From the NCBI GenBank assembly GCA_026002855.1, contig BPGD01000001.1, positions 2,612,001 through 2,676,000 on the forward strand: a stretch of 64,000 nucleotides of DNA. The letters are read 5' to 3'. This DNA comes from Bryobacteraceae bacterium (lineage in GTDB: Bacteria; Acidobacteriota; Terriglobia; Bryobacterales; Bryobacteraceae). The translations under genes were made by a program, and so were the position numbers. The notes below the pieces were generated by a model, which was not told the DNA's origin, ran no database searches, and worked only from the letters and a program-made list of their open reading frames with translations. This document shows positions 17,142 to 19,805 of this stretch, in pieces (positions within the stretch are counted from its first letter, which is position 1; each line of letters opens with the position of its first letter).

Positions 17142-17831
17142 CTAGTCGTATTTTTCGGCGAGGATCTGCTTCCTGTCGAAGCCGCGCTGTTTCAGCATGG
17201 CTCGTACCTCATCCACCATCTCCTTCATTCCACAGATGTAGACGTCCAGGCCGCTTCTCCCGCCGAGAGCGTCGTCGAGGTGCGCCTGCACCCGGCCGAC
17301 CCTCCCCTGCCAGCCAGGCGATGGCCGGGTCAGTGTTGGCAGATAGCGGAAGCGCGGGTTGCCGGCCGCGAGCCGCTCGAATTCTTCCCGATACAGGAGC
17401 CCCTGCTCGTATCGCGCGCCAAACAGCAGCGTGATGCTGGCGCCGCTGTCCACGACTTCAGGCGCCTGAAGGTAGGCGCGGAACGGCGCGATGCCGGTGC
17501 CCGTTGCCACGAGCACTGCGTCGCGAAACGGGCGCCGGGGCGTGAAGTAACCGAGCGGCCCCTGCATCTCGACCCTTCCGCCGGGCTCCAGGGCAAACAG
17601 CCACGGCGAGAACAGCCCCTCCCGCACGCGGTTCAGGCAAAGCTCGAAGCGGTTGCCGCTCGGCAGCCCGGCCAGCGAGTAGGCCCGGGTCACCCTGCGG
17701 CCGTTCACTTCGCCACGGAATGAGACGAACTGCCCGGGTTCGGCGCGAAGCTGGGCCACTTCCGGGACTTCAAATACGAAGTGGCGCACCTCCGGCGCGA
17801 TTTCCGTGTACGAAACCAGAACGGCGTCCAT
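17142..17831 (-). CDS. Ferredoxin/flavodoxin-NAD(P)H reductase-like flavoprotein
   Basis: 229 residues. FAD-binding RAYSLAG (RxYS motif, about residue 49) and the G-rich GPLGYFT are followed by the NAD(P)-binding half with VATGTGIAPFRAYL and the C-terminal VYICGMKEMVDEV. It transfers hydride from NAD(P)H via FAD to a one-electron partner. No iron-sulfur domain is fused. The partner could be a ferredoxin or a monooxygenase; none is adjacent. It is 65 bases downstream of the small membrane protein on the same strand. Confidence 0.88.
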   Translation of the reverse strand: MDAVLVSYTEIAPEVRHFVFEVPEVAQLRAEPGQFVSFRGEVNGRRVTRAYSLAGLPSGNRFELCLNRVREGLFSPWLFALEPGGRVEMQGPLGYFTPRRPFRDAVLVATGTGIAPFRAYLQAPEVVDSGASITLLFGARYEQGLLYREEFERLAAGNPRFRYLPTLTRPSPGWQGRVGRVQAHLDDALGGRSGLDVYICGMKEMVDEVRAMLKQRGFDRKQILAEKYD

Positions 17832-17854
17832 GCGATCCTACCGGATCGGATGCG

Positions 17855-18490
17855 TCAGATGATCAGGGGATTCGGCTGCCGGGCCGTCCGTGCCGGCAAC
17901 AGCGAAAACAGGCTGGTGAGAAACGCCTTTCCCCTGCGCCGACGGTTATTCGTCTGCCAGGCCATCCGCTGCCAGAAAACCAGGGCGCCGAACACGTCCT
18001 GGTCGCGGATGGCGTGTACGCCGGTCTTCTGGGCGGCCCGTTCGCGCGCCGCCTCCATTTCCTTACGGAAACGGTCGGCGATGGCCGCGGCGATCAGGTT
18101 TGAGGGGCGCGTTTCGTAAATCAGACCGCTAGCCGACGTCCGGTACGTCCGCGTGAGAGCCTCAAGCGCGTCCCGAAGGTCGCTGTCCACGGCGCCCGGG
18201 GCCTCCGTCGCCGCCAGAAGCAGAAAGTGTCCGGCCAGCAAAACAAGTGAATCGTGCTCACGGAGCCAGTGCGAGCTGATCTCCACATCGGCGTGGGGCA
18301 GCGTTGCGGGATCCGGCTCGGGGATTTTCTCGTGCTGGCGCGCCTCGACGAGATGGGGGCAGTCGAGCGGGCAGTCGATGGTCTCTTCCCGCTGCGAACC
18401 GCAGCAGACGGCGCAGATGTCGCGCCCCAGCGCCGGGCAGGCGCGGCGCGGCGGCCTCGACTCGCACAGGCAGCATTTGGCGCGCGGCAT
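17855..18490 (-). CDS. Cysteine-rich putative metal-binding protein
   Basis: 211 residues. The N-terminal 45 residues carry ten cysteines (CCLC, RACPALGRDICAVCCG, CPLDCPHL), consistent with two zinc or Fe-S sites. The rest is mainly helical and contains VLLAGHFLLLAA and two basic stretches. I recognise the ACPALGR-x-IC-xx-CCG pattern as recurring in acidobacterial hypothetical proteins but know no function. The ATG at 18490 is chosen because the Cys motif starts directly after it and TACGAT lies seven bases before. Only 24 bases separate it from a divergent gene. Confidence 0.78.
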   Translation of the reverse strand: MPRAKCCLCESRPPRRACPALGRDICAVCCGSQREETIDCPLDCPHLVEARQHEKIPEPDPATLPHADVEISSHWLREHDSLVLLAGHFLLLAATEAPGAVDSDLRDALEALTRTYRTSASGLIYETRPSNLIAAAIADRFRKEMEAARERAAQKTGVHAIRDQDVFGALVFWQRMAWQTNNRRRRGKAFLTSLFSLLPARTARQPNPLII

Positions 18491-18497
18491 GATTTTT

Positions 18498-18507
18498 ATC
18501 GTATCAT
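18498..18507. promoter_or_regulatory. Overlapping divergent -10 boxes
   Basis: Plus strand: TATCAT (18502-18507) ends seven bases before ATG 18515. Minus strand: TACGAT (18503-18498) ends seven bases before ATG 18490. The two hexamers share two bases, and each gene's -35 region falls inside the other gene's coding sequence. Partial -35 matches TTGGCG (18477-18482, plus) and TCGACG (minus) both sit at 19-base spacing. Confidence 0.5.
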
Positions 18508-18514
18508 CGGGCCG

Positions 18515-18679
18515 ATGAAGGCCGTCGATATCTACCTGAAAGTGGAGACCGACCTCGACGAAAGCGAGAATCCCCAGAAATTCGCCGCTGAACTTTGCCG
18601 CGCGCTCGAGCGCATCTATGGCGTGCGGCGCGCCGAAGTGATGAGCCTGCACGAACACGAGCCGCGGGCAAGCGCTTAG
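18515..18679 (+). CDS. 54-residue conserved-looking small protein
   Basis: 54 residues beginning MKAVDIYLKVETDLDESENP; acidic, predicted beta-alpha, with a helical part KFAAELCRALERIYGVRRAEVMS. I think similar 50-60-residue proteins occur in acidobacterial genomes, but no function is known to me. The reading frame starts directly after a promoter box and has the GC-rich third-position bias of its neighbours. It ends 13 bases before the convergent dGTPase stop. Confidence 0.65.
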   Translation: MKAVDIYLKVETDLDESENPQKFAAELCRALERIYGVRRAEVMSLHEHEPRASA

Positions 18680-18692
18680 GATCCGTGTCGTT

Positions 18693-19805
18693 CTACCGCA
18701 GCAGCCTGGCGGCGGTGCGGCGGAAATAGCCGTCCGTCATTCCCGCAATGTAATCACAAACCACGCGGTGCACCGGGAAATGCTCGAGTCTTTTCTGGTG
18801 ATTTTCCGGTAATTCCTCCGGATGATCCATGAAAAACTCGAACAGGGCGCCGATCTGTTCCGTTGCGTGGCGGCGCTCTTCGGCCAGCATCGGGATGGAA
18901 TACAGGTGGTTGAACAGAAACCGCTTCAGCCCGCGGTTCACCTCCGCCGCTTCGGGCGTCATGCCGGCCAGCCGAGGCAGCCGCCGCACGTCGTCCACCG
19001 TGGCGGCGCCGCTTGCTTCGGCGTTCGCCGCAGTGCCTTCGATCAGCGCCGTGGCCAGCAGGTCGATGAGCCGCCGCACGGATTCGAAAAAGATCTCGCG
19101 CTCGCCGGCGGCGGGAAACGCGCGGCGCAGCCCGTCGATGATCGCCTGGTAGCCGGGAACTTCCGCCGCGATCTGTTCCATCGTGAACAGGCCCGCGCTC
19201 CAGCCGTCGTCGAGGTCCGCCGTATTGTAGGCGATCTCGTCGGCCAGATCGATCAGTTGCGCTTCCAATGGCGGCCGCAGTCCGGGAAGGAATTCGTCGA
19301 GCTCGGGATTCTCGCCGGGCTCGAAATCGCGCGAGTGTTTCACGATTCCCTCGCGGACCTCGAACGTAAGGTTCAGTCCGGGGAAGCGCGCGTAGCGCTG
19401 CTCGAAGGACTCCACCAGCCGCAGGGCGTTGACGTTGTGGTCGAAGCGCTCCCCGTAACGGCGCATCTGCCGGTCGAGCGCCTCCTCGCCGGAGTGGCCG
19501 AACGGCGGATGTCCGATGTCGTGCGCCAGGGCCAGCGCCTCTGTCAGGTCCTCGTCCAGCCCGAGCACGGACGCCACCGTTCGCGCGATCTGCGTGACCT
19601 CGATCGTGTGGGTCAGTCGGTTGCGGAAGTGGTCGCTGAGCCGTTCGCTGAAGACCTGCGTCTTGTCTTCCAGCCGCCGGAAGGCGCGGGCGTGAACAAT
19701 GCGGTCGCGGTCGCGCTGGAATTCGTTACGGTACGGGTGAGGGGGCTCCGGATGGCGGCGCCCCCGCATGGCTGTGTGCGGGAAGCGGAGCCGCGAAAGC
19801 CTCAC
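18693..19805 (-). CDS. dgt: Deoxyguanosinetriphosphate triphosphohydrolase-like HD protein
   Basis: 370 residues of the HD-domain dNTPase family, which cleaves dNTPs to nucleoside and triphosphate. Metal ligands: His in LTHTIEVTQIA, HD in LALAHDIGHPPFGHSGEEAL, and a later Asp in LIDLADEIAYNTADLDDG. The C-terminal DYIAGMTDGY is diagnostic. The N-terminus has RNEFQRDRDRIVHARAFRRL, also typical. Starts with GTG at 19805 in a GTGA overlap with the TPR gene stop. Confidence 0.92.
   Translation of the reverse strand: MRLSRLRFPHTAMRGRRHPEPPHPYRNEFQRDRDRIVHARAFRRLEDKTQVFSERLSDHFRNRLTHTIEVTQIARTVASVLGLDEDLTEALALAHDIGHPPFGHSGEEALDRQMRRYGERFDHNVNALRLVESFEQRYARFPGLNLTFEVREGIVKHSRDFEPGENPELDEFLPGLRPPLEAQLIDLADEIAYNTADLDDGWSAGLFTMEQIAAEVPGYQAIIDGLRRAFPAAGEREIFFESVRRLIDLLATALIEGTAANAEASGAATVDDVRRLPRLAGMTPEAAEVNRGLKRFLFNHLYSIPMLAEERRHATEQIGALFEFFMDHPEELPENHQKRLEHFPVHRVVCDYIAGMTDGYFRRTAARLLR

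Follow-up and report, generated by a model that had tools for sequence, protein, structure and literature searches.

This locus raises the question of how two divergent genes with start codons only 24 nt apart are transcribed, and whether the transcription of one of them excludes that of the other. The genes lie in the window analysed here, a stretch of 64,000 nucleotides of DNA from a Bryobacteraceae bacterium, and code for a Cys-rich protein (minus strand) and for a protein of 54 residues (plus strand). A preliminary description had placed two overlapping promoters face to face in the gap, and had suggested that the polymerases would collide there and that the two proteins may be mutually exclusive. 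Direct reading of the gap, GATTTTTATCGTATCATCGGGCCG, confirmed the two starts (ATG 18490 on the minus strand and ATG 18515 on the plus strand) and the 24 nt between them. It also confirmed two hexamers, plus-strand TATCAT and minus-strand TACGAT (18503-18498), which have in common the bases TA at 18502-18503 and which are each exactly seven nt from their own ATG, as had been described. If the minus-strand element is counted as the extended -10 TGATACGAT, the overlap with TATCAT is of five bases. The features are collected in Table 1.

Table 1. Coordinates of the two genes and of the elements proposed between them
Feature	Positions	Strand	Remarks
P0001, Cys-rich protein of 211 aa, CxxC...CP...ICxxCCG...RE...CPxxC	17855..18490	-	C-terminal part mostly helical; no known family
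Divergent intergenic gap, 24 nt	18491..18514		Equal length in 5/5 genus members and in G050 (another genus)
Decamer ATCGTATCAT, proposed interleaved bidirectional -10 region	18498..18507		Invariant in the genus (5/5); ATCGTAYCAT in 37/69 divergent pairs
TGATACGAT, putative extended -10 element of the Cys-rich gene	18498..18506	-	7 nt to ATG; matches in solo loci
TATCAT, putative -10 element of the 54-aa gene	18502..18507	+	7 nt to ATG; kept in some solo loci
P0002, protein of 54 aa, MxRxDxYLKVE...ELCRxLxKxYGVRxAE	18515..18679	+	No known family

Comparison of hexamers with TTGACA gave no good -35 on either strand: at a spacer of 17 nt the match is 1/6 (plus) and 0/6 (minus), and the best matches, 4/6 on each strand, stand at the unusual spacer of 19 nt. 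The -35 regions had been placed inside the codons of the opposite gene; their positions do fall there, but the hexamers resemble TTGACA poorly. Neither a sigma-70 promoter nor a terminator was called by a generic scan of 17500-19500, and by eye no Shine-Dalgarno sequence is visible before ATG 18490 or ATG 18515. Both starts are supported by in-frame stops that stand just upstream of the conserved starts in some relatives (by eye). Could the hexamers have arisen by chance? When random 24-nt gaps were simulated, TANNNT at spacing 6-8 on both strands appeared in 0.26% of them at the AT content of the window, in 1.2% at 50% AT and in 2.9% at 62.5% AT, the gap itself having 13 A or T in 24. Since random gaps yield 0.26-2.9%, a single case of a two-sided TANNNT is weak evidence, and in our view it is conservation that settles the question of chance for the decamer.

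The gene pair and its 24-nt gap are found in four other members of the genus, and likewise in G050. Comparing the gap in relatives had been suggested as a check, and it came out in favour of a conserved structure: all five genus members have the 24 nt, with the decamer identical at 10/10 positions, whereas only 2/14 of the remaining gap positions are invariant and 12/14 vary. Pairwise identity in the gap outside the decamer is 58%, and that of the third codon positions near the two gene starts is higher (73% and 63%). Tested against the rest of the gap together with third codon positions, the invariance of the decamer gave a Fisher P of 8.6e-5, which is nominal, the rows being related to one another. 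A decamer that is invariant within a gap otherwise 58% identical points to a constraint on the decamer and on its distance to both starts.

Two sets of loci were used for the comparison of paired and solo genes. Set 1, from 121 genomes, holds 36 divergent pairs, 51 solo Cys-rich loci and 16 solo small-gene loci; its Cys-rich loci number 87 (92 genomes had a match, and G011, G030, G107, G109 and G113 were left out), and 15 of the 16 solo small-gene loci were counted, L057 being cut by a contig end with its upstream region unreadable. Set 2 consists of the named loci absent from set 1, so that 33 of 80 were left out (the 19 pairs and 13 solo loci that set 1 already contains, and L214, truncated at its contig start); its 33 pairs represent 29 distinct 40-nt upstream stretches, with a few near-copies. 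The pairing of L056 was set by hand from BLAST positions, and four solo loci (L173, L180, L059 and L265) have less than 300 nt upstream, where a more distant partner could be missed. By title, most of the named relatives are Bryobacteraceae, Bryobacterales, Solibacteraceae or simply Acidobacteria; a few with other names (Arcobacter, Acidimicrobiia, Bordetella) seem to be metagenome bins with a wrong label.

ATCGTAYCAT is present in 19/36 pairs of set 1 and in none of its 51 solo Cys-rich loci or 15 readable solo small-gene loci, while set 2 gave 18/33 pairs and 1/14 solo Cys-rich loci. Both sets together thus give 37/69 pairs versus 1/65 solo Cys-rich and 0/15 readable solo small-gene loci; 32/69 pairs have no decamer, and 13 of these 32 carry TAGTATA. 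The nominal Fisher values for the link between pair and decamer are small, but the rows are related, and after correction for relatedness the link is not significant: five independent pair/solo contrasts on well-supported branches, of which about three agree, none disagrees and two show no difference, gave a median p of 0.25 (sign test). On a tree of the 88 rows that have 150 residues or more, whose bootstrap had not settled, the decamer state needs 15 changes, at least eight of them forced by supported branches, against a mean of 28.5 after shuffling. The pair itself persists across gap lengths of about 8 to 140 nt. Separation of the two genes in relatives, named beforehand as an observation that would speak against the proposal, was found in part (set 1 has the Cys-rich gene alone at 51 loci and the small gene alone at 16) and was not found in the five genus members.

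Which half of the decamer belongs to which gene? TACGAT was found in 13/65 solo Cys-rich loci (none in the other 52/65; 90 nt scanned), always as TGNTACGAT (13/13), with C or T at the N in 12/13. TATACT occurs in a further 11 of set 1's 51 solo Cys-rich loci. Solo small genes keep TATCAT in four of the 15 readable loci, at 7-10 nt from the start, where it is preceded by GTCG, AGAG, CCGC and CCGC, never by ATCG, although one differs from it by a single letter. Similarly, ATCG is absent before all eight other TATCATN7ATG sites of the bacterium's own genome that are not repeat copies. The absence of ATCG before solo and other TATCAT sites indicates that ATCG belongs to the opposite promoter. Solo copies that retain a motif retain their own half alone. 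Since TACGAT in solo loci always comes as TGNTACGAT, and TATCAT in solo small genes comes without ATCG, the decamer is best read as both elements, interleaved around a common TA on opposite strands. That each half is the promoter of its own gene agrees with the solo loci that keep one half, but the independent contrasts are few (five).

We propose that the decamer ATCGTATCAT is probably a bidirectional promoter of the sigma-70 type, with two interleaved -10 elements of the 23-bp class and leaderless mRNAs. RNA polymerase, presumably of the housekeeping type, would bind the decamer in one of two orientations. Rightward it would use TATCAT, the transcript of the 54-aa gene beginning with the start codon or with the base preceding it; leftward it would use the extended TGATACGAT, and the transcript of the Cys-rich gene would likewise begin with its start codon or with the preceding base. 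Both mRNAs would then be leaderless in this genus and would be translated as such, and the predicted start sites would be 23-25 bp apart (25 if both transcripts start at the A of the ATG), which is the known 23-bp configuration. Because the TA step is common to both -10 hexamers, the site would be opened by a single polymerase at any one time. Two polymerases would hardly bind together, yet they would not collide, since they move in diverging directions; 'face to face' gave the wrong geometry for promoters that are turned outwards. Mutual exclusion of the proteins does not follow either, since alternate occupancy is not exclusive expression. A study in E. coli reports little basal competition at five of five bidirectional promoters, where weakening one direction barely raised the other, and repression once one direction was strongly activated (PMC12825309). 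Low, steady and joint expression of both proteins is the most likely outcome. The two overlapping promoters of the preliminary description are supported, by the conservation and by the solo genes that keep their own half; the structure is real and conserved and its parts were named correctly, except for their orientation, and the exclusive switch is not supported. The site is best described, as far as its sequence can tell, as a conserved bidirectional promoter with predicted leaderless products.

With N7 on both sides, the -10 spacing puts the predicted +1 at the start codon, as in leaderless genes. Among the 37 decamer pairs, the small-gene start lies 6-7 nt after TATCAT in 34 (counting the second in-frame start where two are close), and the Cys-rich start lies 5-7 nt after TACGAT in 15, farther away in 20 and, in two, no standard in-frame start was found. 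As the Cys-rich start is near TACGAT in 15/37 only, double leaderlessness would be special to some lineages. Genome-wide, TANNATN7ATG was counted 92 times versus 26 for the reversed pattern (seven of the 92 being copies of one repeat), and TANNAT at N13 before ATG 41 times versus 30, an enrichment for the spacing of seven. In a sample of 464 kb, TANNNT at spacing 6-8 precedes 17/317 ORFs, but spacing 18-20 gave 16 matches as well; the sample thus has no unique peak and is not in itself proof of a leaderless class. Leaderless genes were predicted in 3/3 Acidobacteria genomes, with an average of 13.3%, in a published survey (PMC3160421). A count of 16 versus 1 for TATCATN7ATG was discarded as a sign of strong enrichment, inflated as it is by seven of the 16 that are copies of one repeat. 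These near-identical copies (L104, L111, L112, L113, L114, L118 and L119) contain TATCATYCGGGCCATG and inflate pattern counts.

How does this site compare with known systems? As in the bidirectional promoters of E. coli and Salmonella described by Warman, Grainger and co-workers, opposite-strand -10 elements share bases, here the TA of TATCAT and TACGAT, which is conserved in the genus. The predicted spacing of 23-25 bp is within the 7-25 bp of an earlier definition (PMC10268837) and near 23 bp, a common start spacing of such promoters (PMC12825309). It differs from them in that both mRNAs are predicted to be leaderless, the whole gap is of 24 nt and the site has been followed over many genera. 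The closest mapped case is csoR-cueA of Bradyrhizobium liaoningense, with divergent genes whose -10 elements partly overlap, a csoR mRNA mapped by RACE to the A of its ATG and hence leaderless, a 42-nt leader for cueA and a CsoR box covering the -10 region; csoR and cueA are induced together, although competition between polymerases is suspected by the authors when copper is high (PMC5057107). That precedent, in which one side is leaderless, already shows a leaderless mRNA made from a bidirectional promoter; here both sides are predicted to be so, with no known repressor, and the second leaderless side and the evolutionary series would be what this site adds. Leaderless genes with TANNNT about 12 bp upstream, as in Actinobacteria, Deinococcus and Acidobacteria, are alike in their -10 at 6-7 nt before the start and in the lack of a visible Shine-Dalgarno sequence (PMC3160421), although here two such genes stand back to back on one element. 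The EcoRV restriction-modification promoters are also divergent with overlapping core promoters (PMC5333194), but they have a controller protein and their C transcript is not leaderless. No double-leaderless bidirectional promoter was found among the matches listed in the licence-limited literature. Bidirectional promoters are known mainly from single-species start-site maps. The present site, a candidate double-leaderless promoter of 24 bp, offers a family-wide range of natural variants, where a comparison of paired with solo loci reveals each half, and could serve to test whether selection for co-expression, or simply compactness, preserves shared -10 bases.

Other explanations have to be weighed against the bidirectional promoter. 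The locus could be a true either-or switch, at which some activator would promote transcription one way and silence it the other way, the two proteins being made under different conditions. The two bases common to the hexamers make simultaneous occupancy unlikely, strong one-way activation can repress the other direction in E. coli (PMC12825309) and competition is suspected at csoR-cueA (PMC5057107). The basal competition at the five E. coli promoters was nevertheless small, the gap holds no conserved block outside the decamer (12/14 other positions vary in the genus, although the coding flanks could still hold a site), and co-expression would account at least equally well for a pair that persists at gap lengths from about 8 to 140 nt; we thus regard a switch as unlikely.

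The decamer could instead be the binding site of a repressor lying over the shared -10 region, with both genes repressed and induced together, as occurs with the CsoR box. A conserved 10-mer in a short gap would suit this function, and csoR-cueA is a direct precedent (PMC5057107). However, the genome has three copies of the decamer where 1.4 are expected, with no sign of a larger regulon, its halves part when the genes part, and the 6-7 nt to the small-gene start in 34/37 pairs are a constraint of the promoter type, which makes a repressor site even less probable than a switch. The least probable explanation is that a single promoter is real and the other hexamer is the by-product of a longer motif, for instance of an ATCG within the small gene's promoter. 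The decamer is indeed conserved even where the Cys-rich start is 10-48 nt from TACGAT, but a leader of that length is compatible with TACGAT as a promoter. Moreover, TGC or TGT precedes TACGAT in 12/13 solo Cys-rich loci, which hence have no TATCAT, and the four solo small genes with TATCAT all do without ATCG, one by a single letter.

A second promoter form may exist. TAGTATA replaces the decamer in 13/69 pairs, and in all 13 exactly six nt separate TATACT from the Cys-rich ATG, with the small gene at a varying distance, often behind a purine-rich stretch; TAGTATA also reads TAGTAT toward the small gene. By the geometry of these hexamers the starts would be 18 bp apart, which would place them in the 18-bp class, the commonest class of bidirectional promoter. 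It is quite possible, if short of probable, that one gene pair has two promoter forms: ATCGTAYCAT, of the 23-bp class, with a small gene that is nearly always leaderless, and TAGTATA, of the 18-bp class, with a leaderless Cys-rich gene and a leader before the small gene, some lineages including this genus being doubly leaderless. If so, these loci would record a series of natural steps from one promoter geometry to another, the bases held in common differing between them.

Pattern searches also returned matches away from the pair. ATCGTATCATN7ATG gave 17 matches in the 121 genomes against 0 for the control, 12/17 being at this gene pair by position; the others are at G116:C30:11755, G025:C189:1412, G004:C1:2704363, G052:C463:16315 and G085:C1:9264. 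CATN7ANNNTANNNTN7ATG (2 versus 0 for the reversed control in the own genome, 117 versus 44 in the 121 genomes) was dropped as a class marker, the individually checked matches being pair loci and L120. The latter (L120:1501-1530, that is G000:C1:2064510-2064539) is the second two-sided match of the own genome; CATGGTACCTTCTT is kept there in 5/5 genus members, and its flanking genes, named from sequence, are presumably TPR-like and thioesterase-like. As a second promoter of this kind L120 is ambiguous, with a Shine-Dalgarno-like run, AAGAAGG, on the reverse strand before the minus ATG. A distant search for the 50-base stretch in plasmids found nothing.

What are the two proteins? Neither matched Pfam or NCBIfam at E <= 0.1, and the 37 aligned Cys-rich sequences gave scattered weak Pfam matches only. 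The Cys-rich protein had no match among PDB sequences, and its model (mean pLDDT 85.9) had none in the PDB by Foldseek at E <= 0.001. Eight cysteines (C6, C9, C18, C26, C29, C30, C40 and C44) are kept in 37/37 aligned sequences, including that of the window, which suggests that the protein may bind metal. The model of the 54-aa protein (mean pLDDT 91.6) has one helix, residues 20-35. Just downstream of the 54-aa gene and convergent with it, a dGTP triphosphohydrolase (NF002326, above the curated cut-off) is encoded at 18693-19805 on the minus strand, and the sequence coding for its C-terminus also stands beside the small gene in L035, L037, L038, L053 and L057 (by eye). Directly downstream of the Cys-rich gene, at 17142-17831 on the minus strand, flavin/NAD oxidoreductase domains (PF00970 and PF00175) are encoded.
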